Below, one piece after another: positions 52,803 to 64,000 of a stretch of 64,000 nucleotides of DNA (positions within the stretch are counted from its first letter, which is position 1; each line of letters opens with the position of its first letter). Source of the DNA: Halobacteriovoraceae bacterium (GTDB lineage: Bacteria; Bdellovibrionota; Bacteriovoracia; Bacteriovoracales; Bacteriovoracaceae); contig PAMZ01000002.1 of the NCBI GenBank assembly GCA_002707495.1, positions 134,058 to 198,057 of the forward strand. The letters are read 5' to 3'. The notes under the pieces were generated by a model. The model was not told the origin of the DNA. It worked only from the letters and a program-made list of their open reading frames with translations, and did not search any database. Both the position numbers and the translations under genes were made by a program.

Positions 52803-55800
52803 TTAGGGAGAAACATATGGCAATGTATAAACTTCATTATTACTTGCCGAAGAACTTGCTTCAGTCGCCGTTAAAGAATTTGATCGTACATTTAAAAATC
52901 CAGTCACAACGATTGCATCCGTAAGGCTCGAACCTGCACCATTTTCGTCAATATGATTGGCGATACCGATAAAGTCACCTTCGTTTTCAGAACTCACTGA
53001 ACCTTCATCGCCGATGGTGATATTTTTAATAGGGTCTGAGAGTGCAACTCCTAGATTAAAACTCTCGTTTGCAACCATAGGTTGAATCCAAGCACATTTC
53101 TCTAAGTTTTGAGAGTCAGCTGAATCATAACTACATTTTGCAGTAGGAGCGGAGCCATCAATTCGAATTAAATAAGTATGGTAATTTCCTGCACTTAAAG
53201 AGTCATCATTTACCGCTAGTAAAAGCTGAGCTTCTGCAGGACCTGCCACAATATCGTACTCACTAATACTCGCAAAAGGAGCAAATCCAACATCAAATTC
53301 CTCATAGGAGTAGATAGGAAGTGAACTTCCGTCTAGGTCATAATCTCCACCAGTGGAGTCGACTCTCGCAAGGGCAAGGTTTCCACTATCATTGGTTCCC
53401 GTGACAAAAACAGAAGGATCAAAATCCGTAGTTTCTTTGGAAACGCTTAGTTTAATTTTGGTAACATCTGAGTTGCTAAAAAGGTCAGTATTCGTTTCAA
53501 CAATTGCATTTGCAGTCGAAACTTCATGCAGATGAATTTCACCGCCGGCTAATTCTTTTACTGCGATCAATACTCTGTCATTTCCATCAATATCATTAGC
53601 GATGGCAGAGGCCTGTACATTTGTGGTCCCGGAGTAGAGTGTACTGGTCATATTAGCATCATCAAGTCTGACTCCTAAATCACCTTGTAGGACTGAGACT
53701 TTAAATTTATTTGCCCCTGATTGATTAACATCGATATAAGGTAATTGAAACTTACCATTGGTTTCATTTACCATAATACTTCCAATGATTGCTGCCCCAA
53801 TATCGTTTTCGAAAAAATCACCCTCTGAGATTCCAAAAAGTTCAACTGTACTTCCAGTTGCAACCGCTCTTAAACCTTGAATTTCGGTGGCCGTCGAAGC
53901 GTTGATTGCAGTTGCAAAACTCTGAGCCGTCAGATTGACTGTGGTGCAACCGCTCGTACAAAAATCAGTCCCACCGACTAAGGAGAGAGAACCTCCATGT
54001 AGACCAGAGAAGGTTACCGTCATCGCAGTAATCGATCCGTTATTATAAGGCTGAGTGAAAACAAGCTCAGCATTTCCGTCACTATTTATAGATTCGCTAT
54101 TGATACCTGTACTTGCAACCGTGATATTATTGGTGAGATCATCATAGCCGGGATCCCAACCAAAAGTGCCAGAATGAATAAAGCCCGTTTTTCCTGAGCC
54201 AATATCAATTCTTCTGATATGAACAGAGTCGTTTCCAGAAATTGGTGCCATATAGGAAATATAAAGAGAACCATTAGTCGGATCTCCGGTAATGGATAAA
54301 TTGGTAACTTCGTTAGAGGCAAATGCACCATCGGTTGAAGCATCAAAAATAATACTTTCCATCTGACCTGTAACACTTGAACCTTCCCCCGTTGCGGAGA
54401 TAGTAGGGTCAAGTGAGCCTTGTTTCGTTCCATCAGCGCCAATGACGTGTTTTTCTACAACAATTTGTTTGTTGATAGTTACATATGCGGTGTATTGAAC
54501 GATAGGATCTGTGCTGCTTGGATCAACCCAAGTGGCTACCGCACCTTCACCGTTATTAGCTGTTGAATTTTCATCATAAGCATATCCTGCTGATAGGTTA
54601 GGAATGACGTTAAAATCCCAAGCCTGACCGAGTCCACCTGAACCAATGGCAGTAGAGGAGTCCATTGGTCCTCCTGCGTCAGTACAATCATCATTGGTAG
54701 CATCATAAGCCTCTTTTAGAGTTTGAGATCCATCGATAAATCCATCATCACCTAAACATAATTTTACCTGAACAGGGACGCCAGTAAACTGAGTGACGGC
54801 CACCGGAAGTAGTGATGCAGCCTCGACAATCTCTGAGCTTGGAGTCCATGAGAGGATTCGCTCATTAGCGCCTTCGATTGGAAACCAGTCATTTCCCGTG
54901 CCGTCGTAATTGACAACCCATTGATACTCAATCTCATCCCCATCAGCTGTTGAAGCATCAGTGACAGGTCCAGGATCAAGTGTTACTGGAAGTCCTGCAA
55001 GGATAGTTATATTTGTCGGTAGAGTAGGATCTACCTGACCTGGATCATCAAAACTTGGATCCGGGTTATCGTTGTTTATTGGTATACGAACATAGACAGC
55101 TTCAGAAGTTCGACAACCTGGTTTATCGTCTGTATTACAATCAGTTCCATCCACTGCACTTGCCGCTGCCCCTGGAAGGTCTGTCACAGAAACTTTATAA
55201 TAAGCGATACCTCTTCCGTTCGCGTCTATTTGATCAGTGCCTTGAAGAGCATCAAATCGGATTTGATGATTAATGGCCACACTGTTTGTCGTTTGACTTA
55301 CATCTCCCCAATTAACCGTTGTCGTTGCAATATTTGGCACGAGAGTAGAGAGTTTAGAAGCATCAAATGCAGCATCATCAGGATCACATTCAGTCACCGC
55401 TGTGGCCAGGTCTTCCGTACAATAGAGCTGGTCAATACTAATTCTATGTTGATCTCTCTGATTGTCAGTCACTTGTACGTGGAATTGAATGAGCTCACCC
55501 TCTGATAGCCCTGGGTCAACTGAAAGATCTTCACCTAAAGTGATGGCAGAACCAGGAGTGGAAGGGAGTGAAACATAAGACGAAGTTGTCGCTGAATCAA
55601 TAAAATCTGCAATCGCCACATCGTCATTATAATCTTGAACATCGTCAACAACCCACTCAATCTCGTTTGAGGCTTGACCATTTCCAAGGTCAAATGGTGA
55701 TCCATTATCTCTTACTATCGCGCTGATAGTATAGCTTTGACTGGAGTAAACGAGAGGTCCATCATTATCAAATGGATTGATGATGATATCACATTCGTAA

Positions 55801-57440
55801 GCTTGATCATCATTGGTATCATTTGAATCGATGTCAATTCTTGTATCACCAGTAAGATTACAATTTGAAAAAGAATACTTACTTGGCATATCTCCATCGG
55901 CAAGTTCACCGTTGATATAGATTTCAAGCGTAAAATTAGCCGATTCATTTGTTGCACTGGTATCATAAGGATCATAGTCATCGTCTTCAACTTCGATTCT
56001 TAGCCTAACAGGTCTTGCATTTCCAGTTATATCATAATTGAGAATATTATCTCCCCAAGTCATTTTACAACCAGTGTATCTCGTTGAGGTTTCACTGGAA
56101 CAATCTAGTGCTTGATACTGACTTCCTGCCGGAGTAGGCTCAGTTGAAGTATCAGCAGGCAATTCAACATCAGCAATGGTGATAACCGGTGGAGTATTCG
56201 CTCTTCTTACTCTCAAGGTATAATCATATCTTTGAATTTGATTAAATCCTTTATACTTACTTTGAGAAGTTGTTCCCGTAAATTTATCATAGACAACAAT
56301 GGAGAGAGTATGAGACTCGATATTCACATTACTTGGGATATCGTATTCATAATCATTATAACCATCTTCAGAAAGACAGTAGACAGTGCTGTCATCAGCA
56401 GCGTTATATTCTAAAGCCATCTGAATATCAATGGCACCTGGGATGGGTTGACCGTCTATGAGATAGTCTACAAAAACACCGTCTCCATTCACACCATCTA
56501 AATTAGCATCTCCGTTTTCTGTGGCATAAACACAAAAGTCTACCGGAGTTGTTAACGTATCGGCCGGAGTTAAAAATCCACTATTAGAGATACTTAATTC
56601 ATCGATCGCTGTTATGACCGTTCCAGAAGCTGGAGTCGCATTCCCAAGAGTTGTACTCGTTCCCAAGGATACACTTGCAAAAGTAGGGACAGTATTAGTC
56701 ACTTGCCAAAGTTGTGAATCATAGACAGAAGTTGATGCATCTGTGAGAACGAGTTGGATTGCATAGATTCCGGTTCCAACAAAATAGCCTGAGCCAGAAG
56801 TCGGATCAAAAGAGAAATCTACATCTGTGCTAACTGCACCTGTTGTACCCGTCGATACACTCGCTCCATTCACATACCAAGTATAAGTAATATTATTAAC
56901 CCCATCAGGGTTTTGAATTGTAGCATCAATTGTTGTTGCCGCACTTGAAATCGTTGTGGTGAACACGGGAGAGGTTTCTGTATAGACAGAGGGTGTTGTC
57001 TCCGTGATGACGTTTACCGTCCAACTTCTAGAGTCAAAGATCTGAGTTCCATCTTCGTCCAGGAGTTGCACTTCAATAATATAAGTTCCAGCAGAATAAG
57101 CCGTATGATTAAAAGTTAATGAGGTGGTTGTGGCCAAAAGACTTTGGTTCCCACTAGAGTTGGTTAGATACCAACGAAGTTGGTAGCCATTATTATAAGA
57201 ATCAGAAACTGTTACAGAGTGAGTTACTGAGGGGTCAGCAAAAGAAATTGTATAAGAAGTAGCTGGAGTGATATTTGAAATGGAAACTGTTTGCCCACTT
57301 GCACCTAGAGTGGCCACACATCTTCTTTGAGTCGAATCATAAGCTTCGTTACTCTTACATTGAGTCGTCTTTTCCTGGGGTAAACAACTTACCAGAAATA
57401 AAATACTTAGAATGTGGAGTCCTTTCAAAAAGTTCAGCAT
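52803..57440 (-). CDS. Giant Ig/PKD-like surface lipoprotein
   Basis: A protein of about 1545 residues with a lipobox (LFLVSC, Cys about 19). A short Cys-flanked loop follows (QCKSNEAYDSTQRRC). Then come two or more PKD/Ig-like beta domains (WYLTNSSGNQ and WYVNGASVSTG, each about 100 residues) and a long Asp- and Thr-rich beta region. No enzyme motif is seen. Such proteins are usually surface adhesins or structural proteins. The ORF has an ATG at 57452, but ATG 57440 has AGGA at the right distance and begins the signal peptide. The gene layout parallels the lipoprotein at 58756. Confidence 0.75.
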   Translation of the reverse strand: MLNFLKGLHILSILFLVSCLPQEKTTQCKSNEAYDSTQRRCVATLGASGQTVSISNITPATSYTISFADPSVTHSVTVSDSYNNGYQLRWYLTNSSGNQSLLATTTSLTFNHTAYSAGTYIIEVQLLDEDGTQIFDSRSWTVNVITETTPSVYTETSPVFTTTISSAATTIDATIQNPDGVNNITYTWYVNGASVSTGTTGAVSTDVDFSFDPTSGSGYFVGTGIYAIQLVLTDASTSVYDSQLWQVTNTVPTFASVSLGTSTTLGNATPASGTVITAIDELSISNSGFLTPADTLTTPVDFCVYATENGDANLDGVNGDGVFVDYLIDGQPIPGAIDIQMALEYNAADDSTVYCLSEDGYNDYEYDIPSNVNIESHTLSIVVYDKFTGTTSQSKYKGFNQIQRYDYTLRVRRANTPPVITIADVELPADTSTEPTPAGSQYQALDCSSETSTRYTGCKMTWGDNILNYDITGNARPVRLRIEVEDDDYDPYDTSATNESANFTLEIYINGELADGDMPSKYSFSNCNLTGDTRIDIDSNDTNDDQAYECDIIINPFDNDGPLVYSSQSYTISAIVRDNGSPFDLGNGQASNEIEWVVDDVQDYNDDVAIADFIDSATTSSYVSLPSTPGSAITLGEDLSVDPGLSEGELIQFHVQVTDNQRDQHRISIDQLYCTEDLATAVTECDPDDAAFDASKLSTLVPNIATTTVNWGDVSQTTNSVAINHQIRFDALQGTDQIDANGRGIAYYKVSVTDLPGAAASAVDGTDCNTDDKPGCRTSEAVYVRIPINNDNPDPSFDDPGQVDPTLPTNITILAGLPVTLDPGPVTDASTADGDEIEYQWVVNYDGTGNDWFPIEGANERILSWTPSSEIVEAASLLPVAVTQFTGVPVQVKLCLGDDGFIDGSQTLKEAYDATNDDCTDAGGPMDSSTAIGSGGLGQAWDFNVIPNLSAGYAYDENSTANNGEGAVATWVDPSSTDPIVQYTAYVTINKQIVVEKHVIGADGTKQGSLDPTISATGEGSSVTGQMESIIFDASTDGAFASNEVTNLSITGDPTNGSLYISYMAPISGNDSVHIRRIDIGSGKTGFIHSGTFGWDPGYDDLTNNITVASTGINSESINSDGNAELVFTQPYNNGSITAMTVTFSGLHGGSLSLVGGTDFCTSGCTTVNLTAQSFATAINASTATEIQGLRAVATGSTVELFGISEGDFFENDIGAAIIGSIMVNETNGKFQLPYIDVNQSGANKFKVSVLQGDLGVRLDDANMTSTLYSGTTNVQASAIANDIDGNDRVLIAVKELAGGEIHLHEVSTANAIVETNTDLFSNSDVTKIKLSVSKETTDFDPSVFVTGTNDSGNLALARVDSTGGDYDLDGSSLPIYSYEEFDVGFAPFASISEYDIVAGPAEAQLLLAVNDDSLSAGNYHTYLIRIDGSAPTAKCSYDSADSQNLEKCAWIQPMVANESFNLGVALSDPIKNITIGDEGSVSSENEGDFIGIANHIDENGAGSSLTDAIVVTGFLNVRSNSLTATEASSSASNNEVYTLPYVSP

Positions 57441-57631
57441 ACGATTCCTCATCTACATTTATCGGACTTTAAAAATAGAACCTTAAAGGTTTCTTCTATA
57501 GATTAATTATCTCACGTGAATTTTTTTGTATTGAGATATCAGATAGTTACCATCACTATATGGCGTTAATAGTCTGGGGAATGACAATTTTTAGATGCGA
57601 TAGGTAGTAGTAAGTACGTGAAATCTAGGAT

Positions 57632-58579
57632 TTAAGCTATTTCACCTTTTTTAAAGGGGTTATATAAAACTCCTTCTTTAGCCACTTCCATAAACTCTTT
57701 TATCTGAGATTGGCGTTTTTGATATAAGGCCATAAATTGCTCAAGTTTTAAGCTTTCATCATCTAAGAGGTGAAGGGCCACAATCGAAGACTCAGCATTT
57801 TCGGTCAAGATATCATCAATTTGTCCTTCCACCATGATCTCCACTCTACAGCGATCATAAACAAAGACAATCTGTAATTCAATATTTTGACCTCGTTCAA
57901 GAGCGAGAGCATCTTCAGTTTTAATTTCAAATTCAAGTTCATTAGAATCAAAATGTTCAAGAAAGAACTCACTATTATCTGGTAAATCTTCCGAGACATT
58001 GATTTCCATACGTCCCGATTCTAAACTTATTCCTCCAAGCTTTGGATGCTCCAAAGCTTTGTAGTGAAGTGAATCATCTACATTAGTCTCAGTGACATTT
58101 CTAATACGAGTCAGCTCGTCCATCTCAGATGAAAGCTGCTCTCTTTCAGCTAGACCTTCAATCTCATCGATCTCAGGATCATTAAAGAGGAATTCACCAT
58201 GAATTTTGTCAATAGACTCAATAAGTCTTTGGGTGGAGAGTTGGTGGTTGTAAACCTCATCGCACCCAAGCCGTTTAAGTACCGAAACAGCATCACGATT
58301 GTAATTTTTTATAAGAGCGATAGGTCTTAGATTTTTATTAGTAATTTTATTTTTGAATCTTTTTAATAATAATTTAACTTGAGAGAGGTCTTGATTATCT
58401 TTGGCAATAAATATAAAGATGGCCTGCTCTGCTTGGTTGAGGAACTCAGATGCCTCTAGGGGCGTCTCATAAGTTTCAATCGTTGCGTCTTCATTGTTCT
58501 TGTAGTGTTCACTTAATTCCGAGGGGAGAGTTGCCCCGCTTGGAAAATTGAATAAAAGTATGTTTAGTTTTTCTTCCAT
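57632..58579 (-). CDS. Pseudo-receiver / PilZ-like regulatory protein
   Basis: A 315-residue cytoplasmic protein with two probable domains. Residues 1-135 look like a CheY-like receiver that has lost the phosphorylation site: there is no acidic pair and no clear acceptor Asp, but the C-terminal RLGCDEVYNHQLSTQRLIESI fits alpha4-beta5-alpha5. Residues about 170-300 resemble a PilZ barrel (SLESGRMEINVS turn, then beta strands); c-di-GMP residues are not clear. It lies between the two giant lipoprotein genes with good ribosome site AGGAAG and may regulate surface display. Domain calls are by pattern only. Confidence 0.55.
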   Translation of the reverse strand: MEEKLNILLFNFPSGATLPSELSEHYKNNEDATIETYETPLEASEFLNQAEQAIFIFIAKDNQDLSQVKLLLKRFKNKITNKNLRPIALIKNYNRDAVSVLKRLGCDEVYNHQLSTQRLIESIDKIHGEFLFNDPEIDEIEGLAEREQLSSEMDELTRIRNVTETNVDDSLHYKALEHPKLGGISLESGRMEINVSEDLPDNSEFFLEHFDSNELEFEIKTEDALALERGQNIELQIVFVYDRCRVEIMVEGQIDDILTENAESSIVALHLLDDESLKLEQFMALYQKRQSQIKEFMEVAKEGVLYNPFKKGEIA

Positions 58580-58755: not shown

Positions 58756-61700
58756 TCAATTAGCAAATTCTCCAATAATTCCACAGCTGGCGTGAGGGTC
58801 ATCATCCGTACTGGCGACACTATCATCATCAACAGTATCAGTCTGACAATGCATAAGTAGGGTTGAGCTTCCAGTATCCAGTAATTCGATCTCATTAGTT
58901 GAACCTTCGGAGTAATGATAAAAGAAATCCTGCCCGTCTGAAGCTCCCACATCACTTACACTTGCTGTAAAGAGATCTGAAGAAGAAGTATTATAATAAA
59001 TCGTATAGCCGGTATTCATGTCACCATCACCATTAGGATCTGTTACCACATCGGCTATAACCAGGTCTGGATTTCCGTCATTATTTACATCACCCAGACC
59101 AAAGCCGGCCATATCCACAGTACTTTTCGTGGTAAGAGTGTCAACAAGTTGAAAGAAGCCCGCCAAAGAATCATTTCTATTTTCATAAAAATAAAGGGTG
59201 TTATCGCTGCCATAAGTTTGAATGATCAGATCATCTAAGTCATCACCTACTACATCAGAAAACTTAATCTCTCGAATGGATTCTCCCGTTGGTGCTGAAA
59301 TTAAGGTATCACATGCGGTATTAAGATTTCCTGCCGTATTACCTATTATACAAACCTTATGGAGACCATCGTTACTATCTACATAGGCGACCAGGGCTTC
59401 ATTATCACCATCATCATCCATATCAAAAGACCGGACAAAATTGATCGTACCAACATCAGCTCCACCAGATGAACCGTCACTTACGGTAAAAGGACCCGTC
59501 ACAGTTGCTGGTGTTCCCACTTCATCAAGAGGCGTTGTAGCGTCTAATTCAATTTTATACGTTGAAAATTGATTACCATTAACCCCAACGGTGAAAAGAA
59601 TTTTAGTCGTCGTATCAGCAGCAGGGACAATCCCGTATTGATTAGCATTTGTGGTGGCAGTTAAATCATCAATAGTGGCAAAACTATCTACAGTAACTGT
59701 ACCATCGTCAGCAAGGTAGGCTAGGGCCGAGTTACCAGTTTCGTAATAAAAGGGGGCAGCCGCCCTTGCATCCAAATTAGCACCTACACTAAAAGCAACC
59801 TCTGTTCCATCATATAGGGCAACAGCGCCAGTGTTATTAAGATAAGCCGCACCTGGAATAGTTCCTGCACAGGCAATACCATCAGTATTTCCTTCACAAT
59901 AAGTATCAAAAAGAATGAAGTCATTATTTCCATCAGCATCGATATCAAATTGCATGATTTTAAATCTATGCGCTGAAGCTGTTCCAGTTAATGGTGTTAA
60001 AATATGATTCGCTTGAACAGTAATAGACTCTTCTTTAGAAATCGTATTTCCCGCCAGTGAGCGTGAAGAGGAGAGGCTAAATGTTCTTCTTCCTAAAATA
60101 GCATTATCTGTTTTTGCAATGGCTCCCGTGCTCCCACTAAATGTAAACGGGCTGGGAAGATCGCCTGCAGTGGTTAAATTATAATCCCCCTGGTGGCAAA
60201 GATTAGTCGTATTCGGAGTATAAGAGCTTGCATTATTTAAAATAGCCGCATTTAAACTAGTTGAGTCTATAGTTAAGTGAGTTTCATCAGCAAATCTATC
60301 GGGGCTTGGTTCAAATTCAAAATTTGGTCCATCACCAACTATCACTCTAATGGTTTCTAGTTGACCGGAACTTGCCGTATTTCTCGCTCCACTTCTATAA
60401 AGTGTTCCACTATTTCGAGCTTCTATTTGCACCGAGTAATCCATAACGAGATCACCAAAACAATTGCCAGCTCCTGGCTGTTCAAATTCACAAGCAAAAT
60501 TAGAATTGAAGGTCGTGTTAGGTGAACCTAAATAGCCTGTCGATGTTCCGCCATTAAAGTCGGCAGCTATTTGAGCAGTCAGAGCAGTTGAACTGCCTAA
60601 ATCCGTCGCCGTACAATAAGCGGTTGTCGTTGCTCCACCATTGTCAGAGTCATACGAGGCTACCAAACCACCGTTGGCATCAGGGGTATAAGCGTTCGTT
60701 CCGTCTGCCGCAAGGCCACCTTGGATGACAACTACATTTCCGTATTTGGAGTAATCATAATCAGGCTCTTCTTCTACCACCAAAATATCAATAGTATCGT
60801 CAACCTGAGCTGTGGTGAAGCTTTCATTTGTGACTCCGCCACCGCCGATATTTTCAGCTGTCAGTGCAAACTCCACCGTACAACAGGTAAAAGGAGAGGC
60901 TCCACCAGCTGTTGGATCGTAGGCACGATATTCACTTGGTGTCACACCATCGAATGCTATCCATGCCGCATCAGATCCGCCGGCATCACAATTAGTTTGA
61001 GTCGTAAGACTGGAAGCCAAAGGTGTATTTTCATCTACGATATAGCAGAGACTATTTTCTTCATTCCAAGCGCGATAGAATGTTTCCCGACAAGTTGTCT
61101 CATCTGTGATCGTTCCATCAGTTGTCTCTCCGGAGATATCGACGCAATATCCATTTAAGTCATAGAAATTTCCTGACTCATCAATTCCCACATTAAGAAG
61201 GGTATTAATATTCCACCCATCTGTTGTGGTGGCGGTATATGAATTAATATATCCTGCGGTTTGAGTGTCATAACCACTACCAATGACTGCGACACTATTG
61301 TTCATTGTATCTCCGACAGTCAATAAAACGATATCATTATCATCAACTCCATTATCATCGAGATCATCTGCTCCCACAGCATAAAACTCTGTTGCCTCGA
61401 TCGTGCCTGAAGTATCTGCATCAAGACTTAAATTAGAGATATCAAACTCTATGATCACGGGCTCAGGCAACAGGCCTTCACTATTAGACACATTAATGGT
61501 TACACTTGGAAACGGATTGGCGGCGACTAAAGGGATACCAGAAATTCTTCCTGTTTTAGAATCAAGTGTGAGACCTGATGGTAGTTCTCCGCTTGTAATA
61601 GTGAAGGTACCTTGTCCTCCAACATAAGTAGGATCAAATATAGTTGAAGAGAAAAGGTTAAAACTTAAAGTATCTTCATTATTAGTATCAGGGTCAGCCG

Positions 61701-63816
61701 AGGCATATCCATCTCCACTATAGTCTAAGCTTTGAGGCGCAATAATAGTATTTGTAGAAATCGCAATAGACTCACTCACACTTCCTGCAGAGTTGGTTCC
61801 GACAATTGTATAGTATTTTACCGGAAGGATTTCATTAGGAGTTCCCGAAATAACTCCTGTAGTTGTGTTTAAGCTTAAACCATTGGGAAGCTTTGGAGTG
61901 ATAGAATAACTGGTAGGTATTCCAGATCCCTTAGGTACAGTGGGGAAAATACAATTCCCTCCAGAAACCCCGAGTGCTTCAACACCATCTTGCAATTCAA
62001 ACACATTGAGCGTGTCATTTTTATAAGCACAAACTGTGCTGTCAATATTGCTATAACCCAAACTTTGAGGGGCAGATACAGAAACTTCGAGAGTAAAAGT
62101 ATGTGTATGACTTTTATCAGTGGTGCCATCTCCGTACAGAGTGTAACCAGTAATTGTAAAAGCAGTAGGGGAGAGTTGCACCAAAGGTGTTCCCGTTATC
62201 TCTCCTGTTTGATCATTTAATTCAAGACCCGATGGAAGAGCCGCTGAAATTTCATATTTAGTGGCGCGAGCCGAATCCCTAGGCTTGAGCCCATCTCCAC
62301 TAGGTCTCAGCGGAGTCGCATCATTAGTATTAATCCAAGCTGCATTGGTTCCATTTGCATCACATGTTGCTTGAGTGCTAAAAGCGGTTGTGATAGGAGT
62401 AGTTGCATCTATCTCGTAACAAAGAGAGTTTTCTTCATTCCAGGCCCTTAGAGTTGTATTCCTACAAATCGTCTCATCTGTAATATCTGTATCCTGCGTT
62501 CCCGCACTAATATCAATACAATGATTTGACGGAGAAACAAATTGAGAAAGAGTATAGGAATCCTCGTAACCAAGATCATTGGCGTCTTCCGGATAATCTT
62601 CCGCCACATCTAAAGTAAAGGTATCACTGATAGTCACAGTTGCAGTGGCATCAGTTGTAGAGGTTACATCTATATCAAGTACTCGGTTAAGTGTTCCCGT
62701 TGGAGTTCCTGAGATTCGTCCATCACTTTGATCAAAACTGAGACCAATCGCCTGAATAGCGGCAAGGTCTGTGGCTTCCATAACAAAACCCGTAGGCCCT
62801 GGTTCCCCTCCAACATAGGTGGGGATGATATCTTTAATCTTCACACCCTCTTGGACGACATAAGCATTAATAACAGCATCATTATCTGCTGGATAATCTA
62901 GACTTACAGCAGGTTGTTCAAAGGTGATTGTGATATCTGCCGTATCATCTCCAATTTCATTGTAGACGCGGACTTCAAAATTTGTGATTCCCGTATAAGC
63001 TGTGGGTGTTCCGGAAATAATTCCCGTACTCGTATCAAAATTTAAACCAGTAGGAAGGCTAGGTCTGATTTCAAACGTAGCATCTGCTAGAGGTGTATCT
63101 AAGGACGCCACCATTGAAGTGATGGCCGTTCCTACATCAATTGTTTGAGCGTCATTGGAATAGGGAGTTGCATTGAAAACAGGAGCTGCTTTTCTTACTG
63201 AAACAACAATATTTAAGAAAGTTGATCCCGTTGAATTAGAGGCTTCTACTTGAATGACTTTAGATTCCACCGCTGTAGCCGTTCCTGAAATAACACCAGT
63301 TGATGGATCAATATTAAGTCCAGCCGGTAGATCAGAATCAACACTATAGGAAGTCGGAGTTCCGCCAGATACAGTGGGTGAGTAACTCGTGGTCGAGATT
63401 CCCTTTTCAAAAGCTAAAATGGATACTCCGTAAGTCAGAGTTGCCGGAGCTTCAGCGAGAATCGTAATGGTCACAAAGGCAACTTCTGTGGAGCCCGTCG
63501 ATGTGGTGGCCACAATTCTATGTGTTGTAGCGGTTTGAGTTTCGGTAGCAACACCAGATATTTCCCCTGTTGAGGAATCTATCGAAAGACCACTGGGAAG
63601 ATCCGGAGTGATGGTGTAGGCTGCATCAAAGAGCTCACTAGGGTAGACTCCAATATCAGTAGTGTTCTCAATTCCTTCCACCACACTAGCATTATAATTG
63701 AACGTCGCCGCCGACAGCGATGCTGCCCCAAGATCAACGTCTTTTTGTTCCGTTGGATTACAGGCGACTAAAAAAATCAACCCTAGAATTTGTAAAATAC
63801 CCAAAACACTATTCAT
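58756..63816 (-). CDS. Giant lipoprotein with seven He_PIG Ig-like repeats, two Cys modules and FG-GAP-like repeats
   Basis: About 1686 residues from ATG 63816 (lipobox LIFLVAC, Cys about 19). The N-terminal two thirds carry seven He_PIG-type repeats ending in L-x5-TGxISGxP (for example LSIDSSTGEISG). Two inserted four-Cys modules (Cys433-485 and Cys891-943) share exact spacing C-x17-C-x14-C-x18-C. The C-terminal part holds FG-GAP/VCBS-like calcium-loop repeats (DVNNDGNPDLVI, DMDDDGDNEALV). Probably a surface adhesin. A longer reading from 63903 is rejected because the signal peptide starts at 63816 with GAGAGAAG upstream. No terminator or downstream partner is obvious. Confidence 0.78.
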   Translation of the reverse strand: MNSVLGILQILGLIFLVACNPTEQKDVDLGAASLSAATFNYNASVVEGIENTTDIGVYPSELFDAAYTITPDLPSGLSIDSSTGEISGVATETQTATTHRIVATTSTGSTEVAFVTITILAEAPATLTYGVSILAFEKGISTTSYSPTVSGGTPTSYSVDSDLPAGLNIDPSTGVISGTATAVESKVIQVEASNSTGSTFLNIVVSVRKAAPVFNATPYSNDAQTIDVGTAITSMVASLDTPLADATFEIRPSLPTGLNFDTSTGIISGTPTAYTGITNFEVRVYNEIGDDTADITITFEQPAVSLDYPADNDAVINAYVVQEGVKIKDIIPTYVGGEPGPTGFVMEATDLAAIQAIGLSFDQSDGRISGTPTGTLNRVLDIDVTSTTDATATVTISDTFTLDVAEDYPEDANDLGYEDSYTLSQFVSPSNHCIDISAGTQDTDITDETICRNTTLRAWNEENSLCYEIDATTPITTAFSTQATCDANGTNAAWINTNDATPLRPSGDGLKPRDSARATKYEISAALPSGLELNDQTGEITGTPLVQLSPTAFTITGYTLYGDGTTDKSHTHTFTLEVSVSAPQSLGYSNIDSTVCAYKNDTLNVFELQDGVEALGVSGGNCIFPTVPKGSGIPTSYSITPKLPNGLSLNTTTGVISGTPNEILPVKYYTIVGTNSAGSVSESIAISTNTIIAPQSLDYSGDGYASADPDTNNEDTLSFNLFSSTIFDPTYVGGQGTFTITSGELPSGLTLDSKTGRISGIPLVAANPFPSVTINVSNSEGLLPEPVIIEFDISNLSLDADTSGTIEATEFYAVGADDLDDNGVDDNDIVLLTVGDTMNNSVAVIGSGYDTQTAGYINSYTATTTDGWNINTLLNVGIDESGNFYDLNGYCVDISGETTDGTITDETTCRETFYRAWNEENSLCYIVDENTPLASSLTTQTNCDAGGSDAAWIAFDGVTPSEYRAYDPTAGGASPFTCCTVEFALTAENIGGGGVTNESFTTAQVDDTIDILVVEEEPDYDYSKYGNVVVIQGGLAADGTNAYTPDANGGLVASYDSDNGGATTTAYCTATDLGSSTALTAQIAADFNGGTSTGYLGSPNTTFNSNFACEFEQPGAGNCFGDLVMDYSVQIEARNSGTLYRSGARNTASSGQLETIRVIVGDGPNFEFEPSPDRFADETHLTIDSTSLNAAILNNASSYTPNTTNLCHQGDYNLTTAGDLPSPFTFSGSTGAIAKTDNAILGRRTFSLSSSRSLAGNTISKEESITVQANHILTPLTGTASAHRFKIMQFDIDADGNNDFILFDTYCEGNTDGIACAGTIPGAAYLNNTGAVALYDGTEVAFSVGANLDARAAAPFYYETGNSALAYLADDGTVTVDSFATIDDLTATTNANQYGIVPAADTTTKILFTVGVNGNQFSTYKIELDATTPLDEVGTPATVTGPFTVSDGSSGGADVGTINFVRSFDMDDDGDNEALVAYVDSNDGLHKVCIIGNTAGNLNTACDTLISAPTGESIREIKFSDVVGDDLDDLIIQTYGSDNTLYFYENRNDSLAGFFQLVDTLTTKSTVDMAGFGLGDVNNDGNPDLVIADVVTDPNGDGDMNTGYTIYYNTSSSDLFTASVSDVGASDGQDFFYHYSEGSTNEIELLDTGSSTLLMHCQTDTVDDDSVASTDDDPHASCGIIGEFAN
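60958..61146 (-). repeat. Four-Cys module, copy 2
   Basis: Encodes Cys891, Cys909, Cys924 and Cys943 with TITDETTCR and RAWNEENSLCY. It is the same module as 62332-62520, about 1.37 kb away in the same gene. Confidence 0.8.
62332..62520 (-). repeat. Four-Cys module, copy 1
   Basis: Encodes Cys433, Cys451, Cys466 and Cys485 with DITDETICR and RAWNEENSLCY, ending AAWI. Spacing is identical to copy 2. The two halves of each module resemble one another (C-x-[DE]-I-[SD] start), suggesting an internal duplication. Confidence 0.8.
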
Positions 63817-64000
63817 CACTTCTCTCGCATCGGAAATTTCTGCCGGGTGCTTAAATATTTTACCTTTAATAATGCTCAGGTTTTTAAGAATACGTAATAT
63901 CAAGTTGTTAGATAGCTCTCACAAATGCTTAAGAGAGATTAAGCCTAATTAAATTGACGCTTTTTTGGGGCTTCTATACAGTCTAAAGTATTGAAACTTC

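Follow-up and report, generated by a model that had tools for sequence, protein, structure and literature searches.

Two four-cysteine modules of a giant He_PIG lipoprotein are probable tandem, long-loop variants of a widespread two-cysteine/tryptophan unit

Introduction

The closest described systems to the locus treated here are a repeat domain and a phage structural protein. The He_PIG domain (PF05345) is the host scaffold: the giant lipoprotein under study is built of such repeats and the first of its two four-cysteine modules lies in a loop of one of them, but the module is outside the Pfam model and interrupts the domain. The baseplate wedge protein gp8 of phage T4 (1N7Z) contains at residues 139-164 the stretch GMCSIASLTDKDECLKLGGKWTP, which fits the generic two-cysteine/tryptophan unit C-x10-C-x6-W, and gp8 (with its homolog 9f4a) is the only solved protein matched by the sequence profile of this unit and the only one matched by its fold; in contrast, it is a phage protein unrelated to the lipoprotein, and both matches are weak. 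Proteins with the gp8 fold and without any cysteine are reported for phage Milano (PMC10811340).

The window, i.e. the whole stretch of 64,000 nucleotides that was analysed, originates from a Halobacteriovoraceae bacterium. The module halves of its lipoprotein share with the generic unit the ordered cysteine, cysteine and tryptophan, the core T[TN][EQK]xxC, the occurrence in tandem or singly and the insertion in frame into large exported proteins, some of which contain He_PIG. They differ in that the first loop has 17-18 residues (10 in the generic unit) and the second cysteine is separated from the tryptophan by 7-8 residues rather than 6, and in that both the GG before the tryptophan and the tyrosine are absent.

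Results

The host lipoprotein and its neighbours

The open reading frame 58756..63903(-) comprises 1715 residues and encodes a lipoprotein with He_PIG repeats, two modules and a C-terminal FG-GAP-like region. Residues are numbered from the start of this frame throughout. The principal features are:

58756..63816, (-) strand: coding sequence of the giant lipoprotein, starting at Met-30 of ORF 58756..63903; 1686 aa
63760..63816, (-) strand: signal peptide and lipobox MNSVLGILQILGLIFLVAC (LVAC) with Cys48 of the ORF, read from the translation
62062..62607, (-) strand: He_PIG host domain with module 1 in a loop, residues 433-614 (Pfam and AlphaFold2)
59056..59256, (-) strand: FG-GAP-like repeat near the C-terminus, residues 1550-1616 (Pfam FG-GAP_3)

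In the Pfam search He_PIG was detected with an E-value of 8.1e-48 in 7 stretches, which are overlapped by a RibLong match, while FG-GAP_3 was found at 2.2e-4, under the curated cut-off, and at 7.2e-8 and 8.4e-8 in orthologs. Residues 433-614 on their own gave He_PIG with an E-value of 1.3e-6 and 29.2 bits (cut-off 24), the matched stretch beginning after module 1. No Pfam match was obtained for residues 821-1065 around module 2, whose position corresponds to a degenerate stretch of the ortholog alignment. The placement of the modules among He_PIG repeats, as proposed in an earlier note on this DNA, thus holds for module 1, whereas module 2 is in no Pfam-detectable He_PIG. The surroundings, which had been described as cysteine-free, are so only in part: Cys 625 and Cys 651 belong to the following He_PIG region, and module 2 is followed by Cys 1007/1008. 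The former pair (C-x25-C, window 61951-62031, (-) strand) is without a TTExxC...W core and is missing in the relatives G066 and G042, and another cysteine pair lies close by in G084; the pair of the window could be a loop insert in its own right.

Two further genes on the same strand adjoin the lipoprotein gene. At 52803-57452 (-) a 1549-aa lipoprotein is encoded, for which no Pfam match above cut-off was found and whose N-terminus CLPQEKTTQCKSNEAYDSTQRRCV, located directly at the lipobox, is kept with its three cysteines in the syntenic genes of G066, G084, G042 and G013. Between the two giant lipoproteins lies the gene of a 315-aa protein without Pfam match (57632-58579, (-) strand); this slot differs in relatives, with nothing so large in G066 and two other ORFs in G042. 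A second ORF with He_PIG-like repeats was seen elsewhere in the same genome (L037, positions 1-1371, on contig C3 of G000), where it is cut by the contig end.

Two old copies of a four-cysteine module

The spacing C-x17-C-x14-C-x18-C, reported twice in the earlier note, is exact in both copies (module 1: Cys 462, 480, 495 and 514; module 2: Cys 920, 938, 953 and 972), and the strings ITDET-x-C, RAWNEENSLCY and AAWI are indeed common to both. The range 433-495 given there for module 1 was numbered from Met-30, and its outer coordinates agree with those obtained here by extension through AAWI. The halves, which had been said to look duplicated, can be aligned on the two cysteines and the tryptophan, giving the following units:

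62332..62520, (-) strand: module 1, residues 462-524, two tandem units (cysteine spacing and ortholog alignment)
62422..62520, (-) strand: unit 1a, C-x17-C-x7-W, CIDISAGTQDTDITDETICRNTTLRAWNEENSL (half alignment and null scan)
62332..62421, (-) strand: unit 1b, C-x18-C-x8-W, CYEIDATTPITTAFSTQATCDANGTNAAWI (half alignment; score 11.6, the 99th percentile of the reversed null being 6.1)
60958..61146, (-) strand: module 2, residues 920-982, two tandem units (cysteine spacing and ortholog alignment)
61048..61146, (-) strand: unit 2a, CVDISGETTDGTITDETTCRETFYRAWNEENSL (half alignment and null scan)
60958..61047, (-) strand: unit 2b, CYIVDENTPLASSLTTQTNCDAGGSDAAWI (half alignment and null scan)

When compared with each other by BLASTP, the module regions matched at an E-value of 3e-27 with 44 of 94 residues identical, and the modules proper are 60% identical over 63 residues. 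Different codons were used at 19 of the 38 identical residues, against 18.8 expected at synonymous saturation. Since synonymous sites are saturated, the likeness of the modules has been kept by selection on the protein and the duplication is not recent, which speaks against the recent duplication of a single unrelated insert that the earlier note had named as the finding that would undo its proposal. The gene is likely to have undergone an internal duplication long ago, with constraint preserving the amino acids since; most likely, module 2 would be the copy of module 1 or the reverse.

The modules are in-frame inserts at sites that are empty in orthologs

Orthologs of the C-terminal half of the lipoprotein were found in G066, G084 and G042 and a more distant one in G013. 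They are the same gene with the same neighbours. A divergent ParA-like gene (called by Pfam) flanks it on one side, with queA, tgt and secD/secF nearby (read from the sequences); downstream follows a second large lipoprotein, likewise conserved, whose start is CLPxxKTTQC. In the alignment the N-terminal architecture matches with respect to the type of signal peptide and lipobox, and G066, G084 and G042 have the C-terminal FG-GAP-like region of the window protein. The difference lies in the modules. Module 2 is absent from all four syntenic orthologs, and at site 1 the five-way syntenic alignment shows nothing in G066 and G084, one two-cysteine half (CEDVSLGGSSPDFTITTEAACIAAVDREW) in G042 and two halves in the window. 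The modules are therefore in-frame inserts in an otherwise alignable lipoprotein. In the gene tree G042 and G066 are sisters (support 87/98), a placement that implies more than one gain or loss event for the site 1 insert.

The empty sites bear out the earlier idea of an inserted module. The four-cysteine module as the unit itself was not supported: G042 has a single half where the window has two, and this half matches a widespread two-cysteine/tryptophan unit. The minimal insert is one C-C-W half, and the four-cysteine module is probably a tandem pair.

Searches for the module in databases and relatives

No confident model match to the module itself was obtained in Pfam, NCBIfam or PHROGs, and the full module gave no significant match to PDB sequences. 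The earlier impression that it resembles no named domain was upheld by these curated families, and a confident match to a known domain, named there as counter-evidence, did not turn up. Literature searches with unit strings and descriptions retrieved nothing. Among 143 relatives and in pattern scans of GTDB and IMG/VR, only the two copies of the window were significant for the full module, and the half profile A3 recovered one true additional copy in the relatives, that of G042.

Several candidates were rejected. The remaining inspected full-module matches among the 143 relatives and half-profile matches such as L053 and L056 were attributed to chance, as were the PDB entries 6inx, 3dxo, 5itv and 8qhi and the hemagglutinin matches of a Methylobacter tandem (E-values in the range of 0.05-1). 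DUF4501 (E 0.02) was likewise discarded.

A C-x10-C-x6-W unit in many unrelated proteins

Each half presumably resembles a repeat of the form CS..TTQATCEAAGGTW, and this likeness was used as a search lead. The search for the generic unit started from a preconceived consensus, toward which the recovered sample of units is consequently biased. In IMG/VR, natural units were found at no fewer than 80 loci in clearly different ORFs. The GTDB scan yielded units in pseudopilin-like proteins of Desulfobulbus and Methylobacter, in a protein of a Methylophaga MAG that is probably of phage origin and in two proteins of Nitrospirae, of which one resembles a multihaem cytochrome.

Profile A5, built from 21 viral units, was run against the relatives of the window's genome. 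At an E-value of 0.05 it matched in 17 of 143 genomes, where about 7 were expected by chance, and below 0.001 nine matches stood against about 0.14 expected (best E-value 7.7e-6 per genome). The matched ORFs are mostly giant, with 1000-4556 residues. From 52 non-redundant units (less than 75% mutually identical; loci L083-L204) the consensus GxCS[ND]xxYTT[KQE]xxCE[AS][AN]GGTWT was derived, in which the search pattern dictated the two cysteines, the tryptophan and the T/S/N-type positions but left S2, Y6, E13, G16, T18 and the preceding G free. Profile A8, comprising 46 of these units, matched at an E-value of 0.01 in 33 of 369 genomes of the phylum, partly genomes that had supplied units.

Among the hosts of the unit, which occurs alone or as tandem copies, are giant lipoproteins of the same family, pseudopilins, a multihaem cytochrome and unrelated phage structural proteins; by Pfam, the phage hosts are a tail tip protein J, a head completion protein and, weakly, an SU10 adaptor, which are mutually unrelated. 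In a second, independent lipoprotein family (genus g3), G079 is without the unit that G068 and G159 carry in a He_PIG-like hairpin (FNTS^TGVISG), the gain or loss being in frame. A unit of the same plan is therefore present in many unrelated proteins, and single copies of it have been acquired or lost in a second lipoprotein family.

Further observations concern individual hosts. In L163, L164 and L170, from Desulfobulbus, Methylobacter and a relative of the window's genome, C-C-W units occur in pseudopilin-like proteins with an N-terminal prepilin-type segment (N-termini read from sequence). In L169, L183 and L191 (G066, G016 and G055), which are large surface proteins, an ECGGxxxxCxxGP-like motif follows just after the C-C-W units; the proteins with this motif span several genera of the same family.

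Relation of the window halves to the generic unit

All four halves of the window and the half of G042 have two cysteines and then a tryptophan in fixed order, as well as the core T[TN][EQK]xxC, in the forms ITDETIC, FSTQATC, ITDETTC, LTTQTNC and ITTEAAC. Aligned to the generic unit with hhalign, the halves reached P-values of 3-4e-4 at a probability of 35-40%, and with shuffles that kept the cysteine and tryptophan positions the P-values were 0.003 for module 1, 0.010 for module 2 and 0.006 for G042. In a scan of 752 ORFs the five halves scored 11.6, 9.8, 7.5, 3.2 and 1.0; all of them are above the 95th percentile of a reversed-protein null (-1.7; 99th percentile 6.1; 43 pattern matches). Two further properties of the generic unit were not found. 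The first loop of 10-13 residues is replaced by 17-18 residues in the window and 19 in G042, and instead of the ending GG(T)W the sequences RAW, AAW and REW are present; the first G of this ending is found in 35 of the 52 generic units. Longer first loops of about 14-17 residues occur in units beside canonical ones in L088, L091 and L168, so loop length varies, and the window copy is a probable variant rather than a typical member. The sequence comparison thus suggests that the window module is probably a divergent, long-loop, tandem variant of the generic unit.

The match rests on a short TT[EQ]xxC...W block, which may have arisen by convergence. The modules might instead constitute a domain private to this lineage and unrelated to the widespread unit, with copies from the old duplication within the gene, the likeness arising since any short disulfide loop with a tryptophan and threonines looks similar. 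This reading agrees with the absence of full-module copies outside the gene in the 143 relatives, the GTDB scan and IMG/VR, with the HMM search of the window's own genome, in which A8 did not find the modules at an E-value of 0.01, and with the two copies being far more alike than to anything else. It is nevertheless considered rather unlikely, given that the half of G042 at the same site has a core (TITTEAAC...REW) closer to the generic unit, that all five halves exceeded both the shuffled and the reversed nulls, and that long-loop units directly adjoin canonical ones in L091 and L168.

Patchy presence at one site, many unrelated hosts and variable copy number would also be compatible with neutral or selfish inserts, i.e. 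short coding elements that spread at the DNA level into harmless loops and serve no host function. Against such elements, no pair of units in unrelated flanks showed DNA likeness beyond protein similarity, the best DNA identity being 83%, inside one gene. Over the units compared, identical residues had the same codon in 672 cases and a different one in 816. Moreover, the window modules have saturated synonymous sites but preserved amino acids, which points to selection at the protein level. A non-systematic look revealed neither inverted repeats nor target duplications. Spread of this kind is judged improbable.

Predicted fold, phage T4 gp8 and the cysteines

AlphaFold2, applied to 46 aligned units, returned a model with a mean pLDDT of 89.6, in which a short strand and a loop lead to a helix spanning T-x-x-C-E and then to a strand at the tryptophan; the modelled strand positions suggest that the two ends of the unit pair or meet. 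For the host domain of module 1, the He_PIG strands were modelled with a pLDDT of about 70-86 and the module with about 36-54, the latter showing, at low confidence, a helix at DETICR and a hairpin RAWN/LCYE.

A Foldseek search against the whole PDB (350,542 chains) gave one entry, T4 gp8, as a weak match (E 8.4; TM 0.70 over 28 columns, 32% identity). With profile A8, gp8 was matched weakly at residues 139-164 (TGMCSIASLTDKDECLKLGGKWTPSA, E 1). Each match is insignificant alone; they are persuasive because both agree out of 350,542 chains and, judged by length and identity, would cover the same residues. The gp8 stretch recurs in about 1,400 phage records (query flanks approximate). The unit would be dispensable to the gp8 fold, consistent with the Milano proteins.

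From its sequence, the module is plausibly a disulfide-tied loop. Since phage hosts are assembled in the reducing cytoplasm, a disulfide is not assured there; structural disulfides would be unusual in such proteins, which could favour metal- or cofactor-binding or redox-active cysteines, a reading that is very improbable with only two cysteines and no conserved His, Asp or further Cys in register, no CxxC pair and an exported lipoprotein in the window.

Discussion

Taken as a whole, the modules are best explained, and with fair probability, as tandem pairs of long-loop unit variants used as a loop cassette. In the plan of the unit, a cysteine and a loop would be followed by T[TD][EQ]xxC on a short helix and a tryptophan on the closing strand, with a predicted fold of strand, loop, short helix and strand. 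Adjoining ends would allow insertion in a beta-turn with the host sheet undisturbed, and in exported proteins a disulfide between the two cysteines may fasten the helix to the first strand. In the lipoprotein, the cassette would enlarge and stiffen exposed loops on a stalk of Ig-like repeats at the cell surface, and the enlarged loops would offer a new contact surface with a putative role in binding.

The building block of about 25-35 residues, with two cysteines and one tryptophan, is named in no database searched. It appears evenly balanced whether the C-C-W unit, at about 25 residues, represents an ancient and mobile micro-domain not described before, which has been placed into beta-turns of many otherwise unrelated bacterial and tailed-phage proteins (among them T4 gp8) and of which the lipoprotein contains a lineage-specific long-loop tandem derivative. 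If so, a seemingly private feature of one lipoprotein would be one copy of a transferable protein building block that ranks among the smallest, is common to phage virions and bacterial surface proteins and is missing from the family libraries searched. It would provide a concrete feature to view in the already solved structure 1N7Z, a natural cassette for loop grafting whose ends meet, and a test case for loop diversification in Ig-like repeats.
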